DNA of 64,000 nucleotides from Clytia hemisphaerica (lineage: Eukaryota > Cnidaria > Hydrozoa > Leptothecata > Clytiidae): assembly GCA_902728285.1 (NCBI GenBank), contig CACVBU010000603.1, positions 313,808-377,807 of the forward strand, in the 5' to 3' direction. Positions 5,761-44,272 of this stretch are shown here, one piece after another (positions within the stretch are counted from its first letter, which is position 1; every line of letters begins with the position of its first letter). The notes under the pieces were generated by a model. The model made no database searches, was not told the origin of the DNA, and saw only the letters and a program-made list of their open reading frames with translations. The position numbers were made by a program, and so were the translations under genes.

Positions 5761-6194
5761 TTGCTGTATGGAAATCGCTTGGCAGGAGACATATTTCTAC
5801 AGTGAAAGAAATATTAAACCTTATTTATATTACCATTGCATTTTATATTGCCTAATCGCGTTTTTGGACACAATATCTGAAACGAGAATTGGGACTCAGT
5901 CAAAAATTAAACATGAAATGTGGACATTCTACATTCCAGAAATTGGGGTTTTCCAGAAAACAATTGAATAAGGGGGGAGGATATAACATTTCTGGGAAAT
6001 TTACCCCCGGACATAGTGACTTTTGACTCCTCCCCCTCCAGACAGTAGGTCTAACCTTCTGGGGCCTAAGAGGATTTTTCTTATTTTTATGATATTGGCA
6101 ATTATTGGTTTTCTTGAATCCTTGGCTTACAGGGTGAAGTAGTGAAAACTGTTCAATCTAGAAAAAATAAAATTTTCCTATGAAATAAACTTAC

Positions 6195-6458
6195 CTTTGA
6201 CCCCTTCTGTTTTCGCAAAAACCTTTTTTTGATTTGCATTTGGTTGATCTTCGTATTGTTGCCTCAGTGACCTTTGTTCCTCCTGTGTGTAAAGCTCACC
6301 GGACGTTTCGTTTTCGTTTTTGCCACCAGCGAGGTCTGTAGACTGTGTTAAAATGTGGTCTTCGCGGAAAAACTTTCTGCTATCCGTGTAGATGGTCTTT
6401 CTCATCTCCTTAACATATTTTCCTTCAGTTGGACACCACGGGCATGTTCGGATACCAC
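6195..6458 (-). pseudogene. tnp2-family transposase exon (zinc-binding CPWC segment)
   Basis: A minus-strand exon-like segment with an acceptor (CGTAG) just above 6458 and a donor (AAAG/GTAAG) just below 6195, open for 88 codons. It reads GIRTCPWCPTEGKY near its start and FAKTEGVKGK at its end. In tnp2 (CACTA/EnSpm-type) transposases the equivalent region is a GCxxC turn, then a Y-P/Y-T-x-S segment, then a VKG(I)KGPS motif, and the order here agrees. The rest of the transposase lies at 12184-13145 on the same strand. The 5.7 kb between them contains the duplicated block and other repeats, so any linking exon is lost or unrecognised. Confidence 0.5.
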
Positions 6459-6513
6459 CTACGAAAAAACAAGCTAGATGCTGAATGGACCTACCTGATG
6501 ATGAAAGTTAGAT

Positions 6514-12183: not shown

Positions 12184-13145
12184 CTTGTCCCGGGCTTTGC
12201 AAAACTTTGGCCATAGCAGGGAAGTCAAACATTTCTTCGCCTCATGTGTTTCATTCGCCGGTATAATACCCAACATATGTATTCCAGAGAACGATCTGCG
12301 AAAGCTGGAGGAAAGTTGAGGATTTGCACAAGCATTGGAACCATGCTGTAGCTTCGATTTTCCTGCCTAAGTGGATTCACACCATCAGCACAAAAGGACA
12401 AACCAACACCTAAAGCGAGAGATAAAAAATAGTGTCGATTGTTGATAGTACATTACACGGTACAAAAGATTTTATTATCAAAGAGAACTGGGATTTATTC
12501 ACTATAAACGACAACGGCTCACCGATGCGACCACGAAATGCTCCGTCATCACTAAACCACTCTGTCGTCCACGTTTTGGATGTCACCAATGAAATCTCCA
12601 CTATCTGACTCCTTGAAATTCAGCAAATGGGACAGCTCTTTACTTCCGTACAACCTGGCAATTATTTTCATGGAAAATATTTAAAGGTCCGTCGAGTATG
12701 ACCAGTTGAGTCTTTTCGCTTTTCTTTGCACTTGCTGCATTCCTGCAAAGATTCGTATTGACCACGGAAGATTAAACAATCGTTGACGCAAAGGTCATAC
12801 GTTTCCAGTGGTAGAAGGAATGGCTTGATTAAGGCTAAGGCTTGGTCCAAAGACTCTGGAAAATTATTTTCCTTTGGTAATAGGAAATGATTGGCGTTAC
12901 GAAACATTTCACTAATTTGGGTTTTGGAAGCGTATCCAAGACTGTAACATCCGATCCTGCATACAATTTGGTTGTAGCGATTGTGGATGTCTCGTACAAT
13001 GTATTATCAAAACGAATCCGGCGAGCGTATTCGGGGATTTTTAATGTTTCCTTCCTTTCATTTTTCAAATTTTCCAGATCCTTCTACGTCTGGTCTTCCA
13101 ATCTTCCACCACACATGTTCGTTTTGCAGAAACATTGTTTCATGT
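12184..13145 (-). pseudogene. tnp2-family (CACTA/EnSpm-type) transposase, central region, decayed
   Basis: Read on the minus strand from 13145: a CFCKTNMCGG zinc-like motif, a stop, an LYAGSDVTVLDTL segment, a frameshift near 12906, then YDLCVNDCLIFRGQYE with a CSKC pair, RRTFKYFP, another shift, FSDDGAFRGRIG, and after an intron (about 12413-12518) GLSFCADGVNPLR and LVQILNFPP. After a further shift comes MLGIIPAN and a donor site at 12184. This order (zinc motif, YD-C-C-LFRG, KYFP, S-DG-NP, ILNLPP, GIIPGP) is the tnp2 signature, including the first catalytic Asp in the ADGVNP block. At least three frameshifts and one stop make it a pseudogene unless several are assembly errors. It belongs with the segments at 6195 and probably 13619 and 16184. 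Confidence 0.7.
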
Positions 13146-31801: not shown

Positions 31802-31907
31802 TATTAGCCAAATTCTGGAGCCGCTCGCTGCGCTGCAGTTAGCGCGCTTGTCGGGACAAAAATCACTTTCGTTTTCGTTTTTAAAAGCGAAAGTGCTGTG
31901 ATTTGTC

Positions 31908-33681
31908 ATGAAGATCAAGAAAGGGGAGGATGTTGGCTCTTTTACCAAAGAACAGGCTGCAAAATGGCTTTGCATGGAATTGCATGTTCTGGGAAGAAAG
32001 AAGACCTGCTCTCAAGGATTAGAACCTACCAAAAATGTCCAAAACTTTTGCAAAAACTCAAACTTCGAACCAAACGTCATGGTGTATTTGCTTCAAGTCT
32101 CACCCAAACAGACATCCCTCCTTCATCAACTAATTGGTCATCAAATGATACCCTCTATCCTAAAGTTTCCCAAGAAATATTCAATGCATATGCCTTGCAG
32201 AAAAAATAAGGAAGTATGGACCAACAGGAGAAGGTTTTTCGTATGCTACAAAGTAGAAAAATTGTGTCTGTCAAAACATTCAAAACAAACACAGACTCCA
32301 GCTTTGTCAAAGCAACTGTTGCTAGATCTTATGGGAGTGCAACACGACCAGTAGCTATCCTATTTCAGAACAGTATACCGAAGAAGGCCCACTGTACGTG
32401 CCCTATTGGAGCTAGTGGATTATGTTGTCATGCTTTAGCTTTACTTCTTTATTTGAAACATTTTACAAAGACCAAGACAAAACTTTTACGTCTTACATGT
32501 ACACAGCAACTTCAAAGATGGCATCAAACTAGTAGCAAAGGCTCAGTACCAATGATGAAACTAAATTTACTGAAATTAACATCAGCCAAGAGGAAAAAAT
32601 ACATCAAAGCTGCTGATCCACAGAATGATTTTGATTCAAAAAGAAATGTTAATTTGATAATAGACAGTATCAACAACCAGCTCAATAAAATGAAGCCTGT
32701 TACAGACCATGTTCACAGTGTGCTTTTAAAAAGTGAGGTCGGTCGAAAATCATCAGTTGGAATTTAAAGTTGAGAGCCTTGCAGATCACAAATACTGTGA
32801 AAAAAAGACTTTCGAGGAAAATGCTTTGGGATACAAATTTGAGAAGGAGAAGAAAATAAAGGACAAAATCAATGAACTTCTTTATGGTCAAAAATTCTTG
32901 AATGATGTAAAAGATCTACAACTAAATGAAAATGTTACAAAATCTATCCTTGAACAAGAGGATATGGATATCGAGTTAGTGAAATTTCAATCTGTTTATC
33001 ACACTAATTACCCTACAACAACTGTTAAAAATGAAATAAACTGGTTCTCGAGTTAGTGCACTACTGGGATTATTTGGCCCTAAAAAATTCAAATCTTATT
33101 GGAATATTGTAAAATCAGGTCAAACAGAGAAAAACATGTCAAATATTCCTAACATTGCTAGAGGACACTATTTTGAAAAAGATGGAGTGAAATATTTCGA
33201 GAAAATGTCAAAAAGTTCGACAAAAGTATGTGGATTTTACAATCACCCTTCTAGAAAGTTGTTTGGTTGCAGCCCTGATGCATTAGGACCAGCAGGTATA
33301 ATTATTGAAATCAAAACCAGGGCAAAAGACTCAGAGAAACCTCTTGAAAATTTGAAAAAGTGTAGAAATTATTTTCTCCAATGTCAGCTACAAATGGCAT
33401 GTACAGATGCCCATACAAGCATTTTAGTGTCCTACCTTCCCGAAAAGAAAATTGGAAATTATTTTGTTATTCAGAGAAATGATATGCTTATTGAAATTGT
33501 TCTTGATGTATGTGAAAGTATATATAATAATGAGCCATTTACATCTACATATGGTGAAAATAACGAGGTTATTGACACACTATGCCAAAAACTGAAACCA
33601 TTGATTGCTTATGTAACTGAACTTGTAGAAAAAGTCCCTCAGGCAAAATTTATTGACAGTGTTGACTTAAAAAAATATTGA
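31908..33681 (+). pseudogene. SAP-SWIM-YqaJ exonuclease-like protein, several frameshifts
   Basis: The order of domains is clear although the frame changes. SAP: FTKEQAAKWLCMELH, then after a shift near 31985 SGKKEDLLSRIRTY; DNA binding. A TAA follows at 32207, then in the same frame a SWIM zinc finger CTCPIGASGLCCHALALL near 32395-32450. Shifts near 32750 and 33035 lead into a YqaJ / lambda-exonuclease-like domain: TGSRVSALLGLFGPKKF, then GCSPDALG (Asp), IEIKTR (Glu-x-Lys) and QCQLQM (Gln). The catalytic residues are all visible, so the nuclease part (33136-33681) is undamaged. YqaJ enzymes are 5'-3' exonucleases; in ISL2EU elements the role is thought to be an accessory to transposition. 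Four lesions suggest the gene is dead, but some could be indel errors. Confidence 0.75.
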
Positions 33682-34129: not shown

Positions 34130-35200
34130 TTATTGTTGATCATTCTTTGGACCAATGGGAGGACAAGTTAAGTTAACGATGTGACATAGCATTTGCCAGG
34201 TGGATGTTAACGTATCGATTCTATTCAACGGCCAAATTTCATTAAGTATTCTCCAATTTCGTACTCTGCCAATGAAACGTTCCACATGGATCCTTGTAGC
34301 TGCGATATCAAAATTACGTTGTGTATCCACGCAAGAAAATTGGTCGTTTTCTTTTTGTTTCGGTCGATTGAGCGTAACTCCCTTTTCAGCGCAAAGATCC
34401 TGAATCGAAAATCCTCGATCTGTCATAACTTTATGATCTTTTTCAACGTAGTTCAAAAATTCACTCTTACATGTAATTTCAGTGTCCAAAATTGATCCTG
34501 GATAAACATCAGAAAATTGTATGCCCATTCCATGTGGGGCGATTCCAATTAAAGCTTTCCCTGTGCTATGATTTTTATAGTGGGAGAAAAGTAGACTGTT
34601 AACGTCATAATTTGTTGCAAATTGGAACTTAAATTCAGTTGCATCCAAAACCAAATCAGTTAGACCTTGGCCTGTATCAACAAAGGAAGATGGCATCTTT
34701 TCAAGAAGGAAACCGTGTTCAGGTTTTAAGTCAATTCGATTGAAAACTGTGGCCAAAAATAGGGTCCAATTGTTTATTATTCTTTGCATTGTAGTAATTG
34801 AAGTCCCAAAAACAAAAGCCATGAAATTAGCATGTAAACCGTGACGACAAAGTGTTATCACTGAAAGCAGTTGGGATGGTCTACCGCCATAACTTGGAGT
34901 TGACAATTCACCAGAATCAAGAATTGTTAAATAAGGTTCAACACAGTTTATCAAAATATTGAATTGTTCCAATGTTAGTCCAGTTAACATAAAAAACTTT
35001 TTTGAGTCTTTCTTCAAATTTTCATACGTACAAGAGTTTCGTTCCAGATATAAAATGTTTCCTTCTTGTATAAGGATGTCTGATTCTAGTCTCAGAATTT
35101 TGTCTTTTTGATTTTGAATAGTTTTTAGGAGTTCCTTTCTTTCAAGGTCCCACTTCTCCGGATCAGTCAGTTGCACTACCTTAACCTTCTTTTTAGGCAT
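34130..35200 (-). CDS. Harbinger/ISL2EU-type DDE transposase (catalytic part)
   Basis: Uninterrupted 356-codon frame. Residues 10-55 form a coiled coil. Residues about 70-145 contain a helix-turn-helix (LTLEQFNILINCVEPYL; GTSITTMQRIINNW). The RNase H-like core has D186 (VLDATEF), D261 (TDRGFS) and E307 (HVERFIGRVRNW), the DDE triad of the DDE_Tnp_4 group that cuts and joins transposon ends. All key residues are present. The ATG at 35198-35200 overlaps the end of the THAP frame by 25 bp in the -1 frame. In related elements THAP and DDE parts are usually one protein, so this is probably its C-terminal part, joined by frameshifting or separated by one indel. The stop is at 34130. Confidence 0.88.
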   Translation of the reverse strand: MPKKKVKVVQLTDPEKWDLERKELLKTIQNQKDKILRLESDILIQEGNILYLERNSCTYENLKKDSKKFFMLTGLTLEQFNILINCVEPYLTILDSGELSTPSYGGRPSQLLSVITLCRHGLHANFMAFVFGTSITTMQRIINNWTLFLATVFNRIDLKPEHGFLLEKMPSSFVDTGQGLTDLVLDATEFKFQFATNYDVNSLLFSHYKNHSTGKALIGIAPHGMGIQFSDVYPGSILDTEITCKSEFLNYVEKDHKVMTDRGFSIQDLCAEKGVTLNRPKQKENDQFSCVDTQRNFDIAATRIHVERFIGRVRNWRILNEIWPLNRIDTLTSTWQMLCHIVNLTCPPIGPKNDQQ

Positions 35201-35628
35201 TTTTTCTTTGGTGAAGCACGTACAAGAGGTTTTCGTCTGTGAGATGGATGTAGATAAGATAATACTGTACCCGATGTCAATTGTTCTGCTATTTGAATTT
35301 TTTTCTGCAGTTCACATACTTTTGCCTTTGAACCGTTTTCCTTGATTTTTTTCGTTGCATTGTTGAGTTTTTGCTTTAGCTTACATAGCTGACTTTTTGG
35401 CACAATAACGTCAGGTAAATGTTCTGGGTTATCCCTAACACCGCCACTCCAATGCTCCGAACAAATGTGTCCTTTCTCAAAGTTCATTCCATCAGTCTTA
35501 AACAGTTTTTGATAGGTTTTTTGCAATTCTTCATCACGTGGAAGTCTATAGTATGTCAAAGATTTGTTTTTACTTACAGTTCTGAAATTATTAAAGCATA
35601 AGGAGGAGCTGCAAAACCATTTAACCAT
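35176..35628 (-). CDS. THAP-type zinc-finger N-terminus of the transposase
   Basis: 150-codon frame starting MVKWFCSSSLCF at 35628. C6, C11, C56 and H59 (HICSEHW) give the C2CH THAP signature, followed by the LPDVIVP box. THAP domains bind DNA and in transposases recognise the element ends. Residues about 80-110 form a lysine-rich coiled coil. The frame ends in SPKKKCLKRRLR, 25 bp past the start of the DDE frame, which is in the -1 frame. The overlap has an A-rich run (AAGAAAAAATG). Confidence 0.85.
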   Translation of the reverse strand: MVKWFCSSSLCFNNFRTVSKNKSLTYYRLPRDEELQKTYQKLFKTDGMNFEKGHICSEHWSGGVRDNPEHLPDVIVPKSQLCKLKQKLNNATKKIKENGSKAKVCELQKKIQIAEQLTSGTVLSYLHPSHRRKPLVRASPKKKCLKRRLR

Positions 35629-36412
35629 GTTGCGTTACAATATCATCAGAATATAAAAACCAAAATCAGGTGTGGAGTTTTTAATAATCATCCTGGGCCA
35701 CCATGGAGTCAAAAACCACTTTTTTTATTTCAGTTTGCTTCAGTGATCTAAAAAAGATATGGAATAGTTTGTTTACAAACAGCATCAAAGCATTGAATGA
35801 AAAGATAGGAAGCATATTACAATCCAAAATCACATACAAAGATAACTCCTTCTATTTTGTAAAAAAAAGGCTCCTCTGATTCAAATAAATGAGCCAGGAA
35901 GCTTCAAAGATTATCTTTCAACACTATAAATGCATTGGAATTCCATAAAAAATATTTCAAAACACTAAAATAAGCTTTCTTTTTTGCTTTTTGGGTGAGC
36001 TTGACTGCACTCCCCACGAACTTCATGCAAAAAAACAAGCAATATGGCGGATTTGTTTATTTTTGTCCCGACAAGCGCATCATCGGCAGCGCAGCGAGCG
36101 GCTCCAGAATTTGGCTAATACTACGTTCTGTAAAATATAACTATGAAAATCAAAATGGCGACAAGCATTTTCAGTGGATCATGGATTTTTTTCATCATCC
36201 AAAATTCAAATTTACAGCTTTCTACCCTTTATTTTCTGGTAGAAAATGGTATATTTGTTTTGTTGAAAGTAATATCTTTCAAATTCTCCCTTATTATAGC
36301 CTCTAAAATAGACATTCTCAAATATTATGCATTATGCATTATGCAATATGCATTATGTTTTATTTTGGACCTGTGGGTTTAACCGAACCTATATTGATAC
36401 CTTGTTACCGAG

Positions 36413-38467: not shown

Positions 38468-41400
38468 ATGGCCTACATCAATTCGGTTAACTGTGTCACA
38501 GGCTCACAAAAATTAAATACAGAAGATAAGCTAGAATTGAGGGGAGATCTTGTGGAAGTGGTTGGGGAGAAAAGTTTTAAGGAGGCAGCGGATTTCCTGA
38601 ATAAACAAATTTTGGCCAACGGTTGGGTGATCAAAGTCACTAACAATATGTACAAATCAGTGAGTCAAACTGGGAGGTTAATTAAACAAAAATTGAAGGG
38701 GAAGAATTCTAAACAACGATATCAAATCATAGAAAAATGGCTCTCGTTTGGGCTGAGGGAGAAAGCTGTACGATTGGAAACCCCTTCGCCCAAGGTAAAC
38801 TATATCATAACGTTTTTAGCAAAGTTTCGCCTGGATTATCGACATGAGAGGATAAGAATTAATTTGATAGAGAGGTTTGATTTCCTTTTCTGGGATGTAT
38901 TAATAAAACAAAAAAACTAATTATACAGCGTGTCCGGAACAAATACTATATAGATAAAAAACTTATTCATGCAAGTTTAGATAAAATACTACGTGTGTAT
39001 TTTTCGTTCCAAGCGGTTTTAAAAAAAATATTAGGTCATAATATAAATTGCGAACAACTGGTGAAATTTACTTTTCGTAACACAGGATACACCAACCACC
39101 AAGAAAAGAAAGAAAGAGTTTGAGGAATTGGGAGAAAGACAGAAATTTCGCCGTCTAGCAGAATTAAAGTGAGTTTTCATTCCATCCCATTTATTTTAAA
39201 CTGATCCGCAAAACATGATTGATAATCACAGGGCAAATTCTGAAATCTATATTGATAAAATAAATTACCCTGATAAAAAATATATCTAAAATGACGAAAA
39301 TGATGCAAAAGGATCTACAGTAAATTCTTCAGTTTCTTTCATTTTAAGGGACAAGTGTAGAAAAATCGCACAAGATGCTGGGGTAGAGCCGAAAACATTG
39401 ACCATCGTCACACCAAAAAACGAGGAGAAAATTAGTATAAAATTTAGACAAGGTATGCCCTTCCAGGCTCCGTAGATGGCTCTATAAATGACCCTTGTTA
39501 CGTAATTGTTCGACTTTTTCCAGCCCCCTGTCTTTTGAGATTCCTCTAATCTGAAGAAAGTCCCTTCCTGGTTTTAGTCTATAATCATACAACTTTTAAT
39601 TTTAAGGCTTTCTCTCCAAGCAATTAAACCCACTTTTAATGATTGTTTCGTAACGAAGAAAAGGGCATGGTTTAGCTTTGTAGAAAATAGTCTCTAAACA
39701 ATTATAAACTATACTAAATATCTAGATTCACAAGAAACGCAATCGTCAAACGAAAACGAATCCACATCACAATTGTTGGATGAACCCACGCCCACACAAT
39801 CGACAACTCAGCTATCGTCTGATGAAAATTCGCAAACGGAAAACGACACGTCAGATGAAGATTCAGAGGACACCATTTCTTGGACGAGAGGTGAAGATTA
39901 AGTACTTTCAAGGTTTGGCCCATCTAATGGGCTCGTCAATCGTCAACGTTGTTTGTTTCAAAATTTGCTACTTCTTTCTTGATGTAGGTTCGCAATTGTC
40001 TGAGGAAGAAAAGAAAAAGGCATTGATATTTATTTTGGATACACACAACGTCTCACTGGAGGCGTACCATGAGATCAGTCAAATCGCAACAGACTTGCCA
40101 CGGACCCATACGCTAAAGTCAACCCAGAAAAGGATCAACGATTCATTTAACATTGAAGATGAATCAGGAAGCAATTATGCTGCGACGTCACTGATAGAAG
40201 AATTGAAACAGGACCGGAGATTGGCGTCACTAGGAAGCGACGATGTGTTGGTACGGACATCACTATTTGTTATTTAGTAATATCGCATGTCTTACCGTTA
40301 GCTCATTTATTCAGTACAGAAAGCCCTTAACGTACTCATTTTGCCTTAGTACCCCCTTTCCCTGGGTGGACGATTAATCTGGAAATTTCCTCTTTATTTT
40401 AAAGATCAAAATCAGTGGAGACGGGACCAAATTGACTAGGACCACCAACCCTATTGTTTTATCCTACGCAATTTTAGAAGAAACTAAATCGTATTTCACG
40501 AGCTCAGGTGAGTGTTTAAATCATGCGAAAATTAATCCTTTCAAAGGCATGTATTCTTTCGTATAACATCTATCTAATTGGTTTTTCATATTCTCGATTT
40601 TTACCAGGTAACACTGCAATTGCTCTGGCAAAGGTTGAGGAATCATACGAATCATTGAAAGAGAGTTTCAAAACCACAATAACTGAAGTGAATCAACTTC
40701 ATGAAGAGAAATCTTTATTGGCCTTTGATCAATCATTCAACACAACTGTTTTGGTTGGAGGAGACTACAAGGTATAAAGACCATTCTATAGTAATGATTT
40801 TAATGGTTTGATAAGTTAATTTAATCAGATAAGAAAAATTGAACTGGCTTCGCTTTCAATGATTTCACCTTATGTTTTTCTTACCTTGTAGTTCCTTTTG
40901 TTGGTATTGGGTATGAAAGCAGCAACATCCAACAACGCTTGCATTTATTGTGACATCTCTAAGAAAGACAGGTACTGAAATTAAATTCTGCAGTCTTTGC
41001 TTGAAAGGCCTCCTTTTTTGTCCCTTGTCCAACTAGAACTACATATGGTGTAAGAGGAAAGGACTAAAGGGCTAGTTCAACAGATGAGGCGGGAGAGATT
41101 TAGTTTTGTATCTATTTATATTTCAGACAAGACCCTGAAAAAAAAGGCAAAAAGAGGCAGATGGGAAAAAATTGGAAGAGACAGCCCGGATGCCAAAACG
41201 ACCCAATTTTCAACGAGAGTATCCCCCTGGAGAACTACGTCATTGATGAGTTGCATCTATTACTCAGGATAACTGACAGACTGGAGGATGGCCTCATCCA
41301 TTCCGTTATTGATAAAGATGAGGTAATGTTGACTACATTGATAAAATAATTTACTAGCTAGTGTGCCTGTGTATGTATCAATCCAAGCCCTATGTTCAAT

Positions 41401-42534
41401 TTATCATGACATTGCTTAGATTTAAACTTTCTCTTCGCAGAAAACTTCAAACACTGAACACGAAGAGAGATTGTTGGACTTTGCAAGACAATGTGGAGTG
41501 TGCCTCAAAATTTGGAGAAATAAAACAAGCAAGAAGATCGAATGGACCAGTCTGATGGGCCCAGACAAGAAAAAGCTGTTAGCAAAATTGCCGCAGTATT
41601 TCGAGGAATTTCTATCAAAAGAAGAAGCTGAAGCAACTAGAGTTTTATGGAATGTAAATATATTTTGTTAGGCATTATCCAATAAAAATGAAACTCTAGT
41701 TGTAATGTTTTAAAAAATCATTGGATGAGAGCAAAAGATGAACACCTAAGAAAATTTGCAAAATTCGTAACTTTCTTACTTGTTTTAATCATAGAAATTC
41801 AGCTTGTTGTACAAAACAATTGGACAGGACAGCTTCACAGAAGAAGAAATCCAACAATACGAGTGTGATGTAAGTGTTTCAATAACCTACATACAAGAGA
41901 AAAATTGCACAGTTAGAAAACTTTTATTGCTGTCTTAGTCTTATTTATTTTTCAAAATTATGGACCAAATTATTCAATGAAGTGAATACAGTCGGTCCCA
42001 TGATATGCGACTGTATTCACATGATATACGACTGTATTCACATCATTGACATAAGAGAGTAAATTCATGACAAATCATTTATTTTTCCTAAAGGCCAAAG
42101 CTTGGATCAATTTATTGAAAAGAATGAACGGATGTGGTTACGATTGGGCAAATCCTGTCACGCCATATATACATATTATGGCGAAACATGTTGGCGATAT
42201 CATCAGAAAATGGGGCTCCCTCAAAATCTTTAGTGGTCAAGGTATGTACGGAACATTTCATTCTGATAATACAGATAATATTGAGTTTGTTTTTTCTGGA
42301 TGCTGGTTATGGTTTATTCAGTTCATTTTAAAGTCTAATCCTATTATATTTGACAAATCTTTTTTATACATAGGTGTCGAGAAAAAGAATGATACAATGA
42401 GGCAGTTTTACCACCGCAAATTGAACAAGAAAGATGCATGTGCAAATTTGCTGAGATTGGAGAAGCGATGTAATAAATTGAATATCTCGGGGTATGGGAG
42501 GCAAAGAAGAAAGTACACAAAACACGAAGACTGA
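38468..42534 (+). CDS. RAG1-core/Transib-like DDE recombinase candidate, 13 exons, 693 aa
   Basis: Exons: 38468-38794, 39086-39168, 39349-39452, 39726-39890, 39988-40250, 40405-40507, 40608-40771, 40892-40971, 41127-41322, 41441-41653, 41795-41869, 42094-42241, 42374-42534. All 12 introns are GT-AG, all phases agree and the 2082-nt join has no stop before TGA. The start AAAAATGGC fits Kozak context. Residues 1-227: helical basic N-terminus, then an acidic Ser/Thr/Gln linker. Core: D320 (ISGDGTK), D401 (GGDYK), C420/C423 (CIYCD), DELH 470-473, H618/H623 (HIMAKH), E643 (GVEKKND). Mouse RAG1 has D600, D708, C727/C730, H937/H942, E962. The steps 401-420, 420-423, 618-623 and 623-643 equal RAG1's 708-727, 727-730, 937-942 and 942-962. 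I infer an RNase H-like, zinc-bound DDE core acting in the nucleus. The family (VIDELHLLLRITD, GQGVEKKND) is, as I recall, common but uncharacterised in cnidarians. No RING or nonamer-binding domain seen. Confidence 0.85.
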
Positions 42535-42585: not shown

Positions 42586-42890
42586 TCTTTCAAGTCCATT
42601 TTCGTATATGTTTCTTGTTCAAGTCCATTTTCGTACACGCTTCTCGTTCAAGTCCATTTCTGTACACACTTCTCGTTCAAGTCCATTTTCGTACACGTTT
42701 CACGTTCTAATCCATTTTCGTACACGTTTCACGTTCTAATCCATTTTCGTACACGTTTCACGTTCTAATCCATTTTCGTACATGTTTCACGTTTAAGTCC
42801 ATTTTCGTACACGTTTCTCGTTCAAATCCATTTTCGTACATGTTTCTCGTTCAAATCCATTTTCGTACTCGTTTCTTGTTCAAGTTGTAT
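42586..42890 (+). repeat. 29-bp minisatellite, about ten units
   Basis: Units of TTCAAGTCCATTTTCGTACA followed by CGTTTCTCG, with CTAATCC and CACG variants, start about 50 bp after the stop of the 13-exon gene, so they probably lie in its 3' UTR. Units are separated by no unique spacer, which excludes a CRISPR-type array. Confidence 0.93.
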
Positions 42891-43325
42891 TGTGCCAAAA
42901 CATAAAAAAAGAAAAGAGATGACAAAGAGATCAATCATTCCTTACCAACCAAGTCACTACTGAGTTTATGTATTTGCACTTTTGAGGACGGTAAAGTGAC
43001 TGAAGCGATTTGGAATAACCCGCAATTCTGCCCCGCAAAATCGAGGACGGTAAAAGTGCTGATTTATTGTCGTCCTCAGTTGGTCATGATCTAGTTAAAT
43101 TAGAACCTTACCGTCTCCGTCGCTGAAAAACACACATACATAAACTCGGTACTGTTTCTAAGGGAGAGAGGGATTGTGAAAAATCCTTGGCCAAAAATAA
43201 TACATAGAGGGCTAGCTTTTCCTTTTTTGATAACTTGCATAACTCCACATTCACTGCAAAACGTGCAAGTGATTTTGTGAAATGTATTCTGAAAAAATAA
43301 CCCTATCAAATGTACAAATTTAGAA
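42891..43325. other. Intergenic spacer between two convergent genes
   Basis: Contains two GAGGACGGTAAA motifs (about 42983 and 43043) and a related CCTTACCGTC near 43107. No gene recognised. Confidence 0.55.
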
Positions 43326-44272
43326 TTAGCTATTGTAAGTTTCTTTGAAAAAACTGATTTTCATTCTCTGTATCAAGCGTGGTTTTTTATCCACAATCAC
43401 ATCAAATTTGTTCTTAGAGAAAAGTTTGGGTGATTTGGATAAAACTGAACGCACGATAACAGGAAATGTAATCACTCTCTTAGTTCCTCTCTCATTTATA
43501 AGGCTGACATACCAATCTTTAGGAAACCAATGGCGGTCAAAGTCCTTTTTCTGTAAAACTTTAACACCCCTTGGTTTATCCTCTCCTCTCCCGTTAAATA
43601 GGAATCTGTAAATGGCAATAGGAAAGTCTATCTGCCTTTCACTTTTCAGCCTATTTTTGAGAGCAGCCTCAATGCAAGAGAGAAACCTCTCAACATGGAA
43701 AGATACTTGCCTGATATCTGGCATTGGTTTTTCCCAGAGATCCAAAAGTCTTTGGTCCAAGATGTTCTCCACAGGTTCCCATGTCGATGTTTCGCTTCCC
43801 CAGCCATGCCATTTAACTAGGTAGTGGGTTCTTTTTCCAATCTGTTTGAAAAACAAAAAACCAAACTCTTTAAAAAGAATCAAAGTAAAAATAATTTTTC
43901 TATTCATGAATGAGACATAAACAAAAGCACACAAACAAAAGCTAACTTTCATAACAATGTCTAATTTTTTCTAATCCGATTCACGTACACCAGAAAACTT
44001 TCTGGAAATTTCCGAGAATTTAATAATAACCTCCTCTCACAAAGAGAAGAGAACTTTACACAAAAAAAGTGGGGGAGGGGAAAGAGTAAACATCCCAGAA
44101 ATATACAGAATAAACCTACCTTCTTTTCGGCTAGCACTTCTTCAGCTTGATATACATCTTTCTTGCTTCTTTTTCTCCTCAACTCATGAATGATTTCATG
44201 GTCTGTTGCTGTAGAGGATTCGTGTAAAAATTTGTATGAAAATCGAGCTTTTCTGCAAGACTTCTTTTCCAT
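43326..44272 (-). CDS. Chromodomain protein, 2 exons, 222 aa, complete methyl-lysine cage
   Basis: Exon 1 is 44272-44120 (51 codons, [15 protein letters not shown]...), ending AAG/GTAGG. Exon 2 is 43841-43326 after acceptor CAAACAG and ends in TAA. The splice joins in phase 0 and the product has no interruption. Residues 40-88 are a chromodomain: [11 protein letters not shown], then [11 protein letters not shown] and [18 protein letters not shown]41, W62 and W65 match the aromatic-cage spacing of Polycomb (Y26, W47, W50), so binding of trimethyl-lysine on histone H3 is a fair inference. The 135-residue C-terminal part is basic with [16 protein letters not shown] and [15 protein letters not shown] motifs; I do not recognise it. 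The gene is convergent with the RAG1-core-like gene (stops 791 bp apart). The start is the first ATG after a CRE/CCAAT promoter-like block. Confidence 0.85.

Follow-up and report, generated by a model that had tools for sequence, protein, structure and literature searches.

An intact 13-exon gene of the hydrozoan Clytia hemisphaerica very probably encodes a DDE transposase, or a descendant protein, with a RAG1-type core

A stretch of 64,000 nucleotides of Clytia hemisphaerica DNA (contig CACVBU010000603.1, positions 313,808 to 377,807; called the window below, and all positions refer to it) carries on its + strand a 13-exon gene at 38468..42534, which very probably encodes a protein with a RAG1-type core, either a transposase of the Asp-Asp-Glu (DDE) type or a descendant of such an enzyme. 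The gene was spliced from a reconstruction of splice sites and reading frame. Exons 1-5 lie at 38468-38794, 39086-39168, 39349-39452, 39726-39890 and 39988-40250, exons 6-10 at 40405-40507, 40608-40771, 40892-40971, 41127-41322 and 41441-41653, and exons 11-13 at 41795-41869, 42094-42241 and 42374-42534. Joined over 12 GT-AG introns, they gave a coding sequence of 2082 nt including the stop codon, which was translated into 693 residues with zero internal stops. The introns were 97-291 nt long, and the GC content was 41% in exons and 32% in introns. Stops that would be met on reading through were present in 11 of the 12 introns; intron 12 (132 nt) is stop-free and its length is a multiple of three, so its retention is possible on the DNA evidence alone, and an unnamed C. 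hemisphaerica protein of 667 residues (P0002) has no residues at that place. P0002 was aligned over its whole length (1-667) with residues 1-693 of the window protein (45% identity, 695 columns), and the alignment takes in residues of all 13 exons, the weakest being exon 3 (5/29 identical) and exon 11 (7/25). An earlier note, made from the letters of the window, had described a lesion-free gene of 13 GT-AG exons and 693 residues; the gene was rebuilt exactly and, with the end-to-end match to P0002, that observation is confirmed. No second copy was detected in the window (tblastn, E up to 1). Exons 1-4 (38468..39890, +) encode an N-terminal region (residues 1-226) with no assigned known domain: no Pfam match above cut-off was obtained there, its homologs conserve no Cys or His in it, and the structural alignments do not extend into it.

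The counterparts of the catalytic and zinc-binding residues of RAG1 were then located in the rebuilt protein, all of their codons being on the + strand. D320 (40420..40422) corresponds to D600, the first catalytic Asp, D401 (40763..40765) to D708, the second, and E643 (42379..42381) to E962, the catalytic Glu. C420 (40940..40942), C423 (40949..40951), H618 (42172..42174) and H623 (42187..42189) correspond to the zinc ligands C727, C730, H937 and H942, respectively. The spacings are 19 (D401-C420), 3 (C420-C423), 5 (H618-H623) and 20 (H623-E643), and these seven residues with their spacings stood as the earlier note had given them. An LH motif, D470-E-L-H473 (41245..41256), supplies an eighth residue, H473, at the position of RAG1 H795, which is described as an active-site residue (available part of PMC7204232). 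In an alignment of 88 family rows (A2), 16 rows were gapped at one or more of the eight key sites and 72 were scorable; the set D, D, C, C, H, H, H, E was exact in 70 of these 72, the exceptions being P0086 and P0108. Among the 70 exact rows, the D-C, C-C and H-H spacings were 19, 3 and 5 throughout and the H-E spacing was 20 in 66, while the Asp and His of the LH motif were present in 88/88 rows. The Cys and His columns conserved across the family were the five motif residues and H230, H402 and C428 (P0002 numbering), the last three lying outside the RAG1 motif set.

The fold was tested on a model of P0002 (45% identical to the window protein) in place of the spliced product itself. The predicted fold was RNase H-like, so that the interpretation withstood the refutation test set by the earlier note. 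The positions of the DDE triad, the zinc ligands and H795 fell into RAG1 register, and the Foldseek matches at E up to 0.001 were 43 RAG1 chains and 2 HzTransib chains. The structural alignment with RAG1 spanned RAG1 residues 459-1008 at about 15% identity (14-16% across the structural alignments). HzTransib was the second-best match for the Clytia model and equal with RAG1 for the model of a fungal family member; the P element and Hermes matched less well than RAG1 and HzTransib. By analogy with RAG1, the active-site residues may cluster and C420, C423, H618 and H623 may bind zinc.

Kinship with RAG1 was also detected in sequence comparisons. A search of the Protein Data Bank (PDB) with the window protein (E up to 10) returned 15 matches, all of them RAG1, the best at 0.0072. 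With the family profile, zebrafish RAG1 was found at 7.7e-5 and an amphioxus RAG1-like protein (RAG1L) at 0.0014, and 12 of the 50 PDB sequences listed were RAG1 or RAG1L. Profile-profile comparison by hhalign, proposed earlier as a check, gave a probability of 94.4 (E 8.4e-8, 370 columns) for the family against 33 RAG1/RAG1L sequences, with all eight residues in register, and 91.6 against mouse RAG1 alone, compared with at most 1.6 for 40 shuffled controls and 0.4 for a reversed one. Five other window proteins reached at most 0.5, an EnSpm fragment of the window 3.1 (at its CxxC) and amphioxus RAG1L 94.6. The assignment of D320 to D600, until then a candidate, is based on the profile-profile alignment with the 33 RAG1/RAG1L sequences, on a longer alignment with low column confidence and on the location of D320 within a core strand predicted for the Clytia model. 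At E up to 0.1 the Pfam model RAG1 (PF12940) matched 8 of 52 members (best 1.3e-4) and 8 of the 77 members of a further set, A8 (best 2.4e-6); the A8 member at 2.4e-6 may reach the cut-off, the members inspected individually fell short of it, and the positive controls P0132 and P0131 scored 256 and 275 bits. In the matches inspected, RAG1 covered the H...H...E half of the family proteins and DUF1280 (PF06918) the D...C(2)C half. Other frequent Pfam matches of the family were coiled-coil models, SAP and Rho_N; besides RAG1, the window protein matched two models, DUF4355 (0.0016) and Maf1 (0.39).

Could these results be due to false splice junctions and to residues that agree by accident? GT-AG sites are frequent and intron 12 has no stop. 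Against this stand the homology from end to end through all exons, the key residues kept in nearly all scorable rows and two independent fold predictions. Since family-wide conservation and predicted fold concur, chance was rejected, and we give it a negligible probability.

The family comprised at least 112 proteins in a first homolog search, which scored the best 7995 candidates by shared words, and a further 18 (P0113-P0130) in an iterated search of the best 7999. Its members are named 'uncharacterized', 'hypothetical' or 'unnamed', and one (P0068) 'SAP domain-containing'; the named hosts include Clytia, many corals and anemones, Haliotis, the sponge Dysidea, Rotaria and the fungi Rhizophagus and Diversispora. 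At least four related proteins are from Clytia (P0001, P0002, P0003 and P0006). A tree was built from 36 sequences, in which the window protein was represented by its residues 226-693. It grouped with three Clytia copies (100/100) and next with Oculina and Desmophyllum (100/98), and branches of 4.1 and 1.5 lay between the family and four RAG1/RAG1L sequences; the long branches of Rotaria and Dysidea were of unsure placement, and 10 of the 33 inner branches were unresolved. P0063 was binned as Candidatus Thiodiazotropha taylori, a bivalve symbiont, and groups with Haliotis (97/99); it is probably host DNA in a bacterial bin. In P0106 (Rhizophagus diaphanus) the family stretch is joined with an alpha-kinase and a VWA domain in one predicted protein, either a fusion or a gene-model error, and P0130 (1047 aa, from a metagenome), with a family-profile E of 3.9e-3 and no Pfam match, perhaps represents a sister family. 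Scans of GTDB and IMG/VR gave pattern matches (45 and 32 with the family profile, 93 and 18 with RAG1) and zero confirmed relatives. No description of the family was found in the open-licence PMC literature, to which the search was confined; it did not reach Repbase, Dfam, preprints or the greater part of the subscription literature.

Several points weigh against the interpretation as a transposase with a RAG1-type core. The Pfam RAG1 model reached 21.8 bits on the window protein (E 5.9e-5) against a cut-off of 25. Among the 50 PDB sequences listed with the family profile, 38 were not RAG1, mostly helical or coiled-coil proteins matched via N-terminal columns, the best being 2d1l at 7.6e-4. 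The D320-D600 match lies outside the default alignment with mouse RAG1, which begins past D320. Solved structures in the CMC/Transib (CMCT) clade may be limited to RAG1 and HzTransib, in which case fold matching cannot separate kin of RAG1 from other CMCT kin. A search for transposon ends gave none that convinced: 2.5 kb on either side of the gene were searched with ten settings and compared with 47-59 random pairs of window stretches, and nine of the ten settings were unremarkable, equally good results being given by between 13/47 and 44/57 of the random pairs. No pair of CA...TG ends with a 2-5 bp duplication rose over background within these flanks of at most 2.5 kb, for which one copy was available. 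With the tenth setting, a pair of CA ends with the 8-bp duplication ATTTTTTT reached a score attained by 0/59 random pairs. Its duplication is a run of T, and its A-rich arms match at only 11/16 bases, so that the pair is regarded as a doubtful candidate and was set aside.

The lesion-free 13 exons, the absence of convincing ends within 2.5 kb and the single copy in the window are also what would be expected if this copy were a domesticated host gene, whatever its ancestry, a reading compatible with the transposase origin. We consider domestication rather unlikely; the four or more related Clytia proteins favour a mobile or recently mobile family. The 13 intact exons themselves fit either case, because up to eleven exons are reported for CACTA transposases (available part of PMC4158355).

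Other elements were observed around the gene. A tandem repeat array of 10.2 copies of 29 bp (42589-42885) begins about 55 bp past its stop codon, followed by a palindrome-like piece of about 200 bp (42955-43154) with 32-nt arms of 78% complementarity, possibly a small non-autonomous element. An open reading frame (ORF) with a chromodomain (Chromo, E 3.1e-10) lies just downstream on the opposite strand (43326-43970, -). Upstream are adjacent ORFs similar to a SWIM zinc finger and YqaJ recombinase (31808-33681, +) and overlapping THAP and DDE_Tnp_4 ORFs in different frames, PIF/Harbinger-like (34130-35634, -). The EnSpm/CACTA fragment (6178-6507, -) matched Transposase_21 at E 0.0019, below the cut-off, and its CxxC aligns with that of the family. 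The ORF at 12668-13003 (-) had no Pfam match; by eye, its pattern resembles that of an N-terminal piece of EnSpm. No RAG2-like kelch or PHD domain was matched in the 20 ORFs scanned of the 62 window ORFs of at least 100 aa, a scan that a spliced gene could escape.

For placement of the family, the order of motifs was considered. The window protein shows D, D and E together with C(2)C, LH and H(3-4)H in the CMCT order, which, as judged from sequence, puts the family in the CMCT clade. C(2)C, LH and H(3-4)H are common to the whole clade (available parts of PMC12730594 and PMC4079192), and the motif alone is thus no proof of kinship with RAG1. hAT, MULE, KDZ, Plavaka and EnSpm were set aside as assignments, since none of their models ranked among the 25 commonest of the 83 and 85 Pfam families matched by 52 and 77 members, a cut below which single matches could lie.

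The main rival to a lineage of its own is that the family is a divergent Chapaev, which has lost the Chapa zinc finger or never had it, and that it already stands under that superfamily name. DUF1280 has been equated with Chapaev, in one clade with RAG1 (Majorek 2014; available part of PMC3985635), and at E up to 0.1 it matched 3/52 and 11/77 members (14/129 overall), the best at 2.5e-4; in P0007 and P0009 the matching region was D...C(2)C. C(2)C, LH and H(4)H are, moreover, reported for Chapaev (available part of PMC4079192). On the other side, the window protein had no DUF1280 match at E up to 10, and the DUF1280 matches inspected individually scored 13.6-16.1 bits against a cut-off of 25. 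Kapitonov and Koonin (2015; available part of PMC4411706) grouped Transib, TransibSU, Chapaev and Chapaev3 and described the Chapa zinc finger in Chapaevs. In the N-terminal part of the family (P0002 1-205), 160 columns were scored and none of them was at least 60% Cys or His, so that no zinc finger of the Chapa type is present. A divergent Chapaev is a serious reading, yet in our judgement a rather improbable one.

Alternatively, the family could be a known kind of Transib, such as subgroup I of Tao 2022, which is closer to RAG1L than HzTransib is, merely unannotated in these genomes. Transibs have been reported in fungi and cnidarians (PMC9435367), HzTransib ranked beside or next to RAG1 in the fold matches, and, compared as single sequences, the window protein scored 18.2 bits with zebrafish RAG1, similar to the 20.1 bits between mouse RAG1 and HzTransib. 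Contrary to this, HzTransib was not listed with the family profile at E up to 10, whereas RAG1 was. With the RAG1/RAG1L profile HzTransib scored 49.3 bits, whereas none of 131 family sequences exceeded 30.1 (65/131 scored at E up to 10), so that by this measure the family stands farther from RAG1L than HzTransib does. For RAG1L cores against Transibs, Tao 2022 gives a mean identity of 26%, above the 14-16% of our structural alignments. An unannotated Transib is considered improbable, clearly more so than a divergent Chapaev.

In conclusion, the interpretation of the earlier note as a RAG1/Transib relative is supported in a corrected form. The computed basis is a spliced frame of full length, conservation across a family, an RNase H-like core in the predicted fold and eight residues in RAG1 register. 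The RAG1-type core held; membership in RAG1L and likeness to HzTransib by score did not, and the motif is clade-wide. As far as measured on sequences, the family appears as a lineage of the CMCT clade beside RAG1/Transib and Chapaev and inside neither. As a tentative proposal, which we hold with slightly less than even confidence, it would be a further deep and unnamed RAG1-type lineage, spread over cnidarians, molluscs, a sponge, rotifers and glomeromycote fungi, with its own N-terminal region for DNA recognition, without RING, Chapa or nonamer-binding domain, and with an intact 13-exon gene in a hydrozoan that may serve its host.

By analogy with RAG1 and Transib, a dimer would recognise the transposon ends via its own N-terminal region, in place of the nonamer-binding domain of RAG1. 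D320, D401 and E643 would hold two divalent metals, with H473 assisting the active site as H795 does in RAG1 and with C420, C423, H618 and H623 holding a structural zinc. The DNA would be nicked, the 3'-OH would then attack the opposite strand and leave a hairpin on the flank in the manner of RAG1, and the ends would later be joined to target DNA, completing integration.

RAG1 is thought to derive from a transposon of the Transib type, and it is debated in what order its parts were acquired. A lineage with a bare RAG1-type core, outside RAG1L and HzTransib by score, could act as an outgroup: are D-x-x-H, the zinc-bearing insertion and the RNase H core old, and were the nonamer-binding domain, RING and RAG2 binding acquired later? 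The intact family proteins also offer material to test how general RAG1-like hairpin chemistry is in the clade.

Compared with known systems, the family resembles RAG1 and RAG1L in predicted fold, in the DDE triad, the two Cys and two His, the H795 position and the D-C, C-C, H-H and H-E spacings. It differs in the distance between the two catalytic Asp residues, which is mostly 81 in the family and 108 in mouse RAG1, and in its intron-rich gene. RING and the nonamer-binding domain had both been claimed absent: no RING was matched in the window protein (Pfam, E up to 10), while the RAG1L P0131 does show it, and no N-terminal Cys or His column is conserved in the family; for the nonamer-binding domain, the structural alignments start at about RAG1 residue 459, after that domain. 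Transib, as represented by HzTransib, is closer to RAG1L than the family is, and has CAC ends with a 5-bp duplication, whereas the best 5-bp candidates beside the 13-exon gene, a single copy, were at background. Chapaev differs by the Chapa zinc finger and resembles the family in its C(2)C, LH and H(4)H and through the weak DUF1280 matches. EnSpm/CACTA, Mirage, Plavaka, ESTA and Lanisha are described with D, D, C(2)C, H(3-4)H, E and a third His (available part of PMC12730594, in which ESTA belongs to rust fungi with TA duplications and Lanisha enters by citation only); with the exception of the EnSpm fragment of the window they were compared by description, and by that description their set of motifs is like that of the family.

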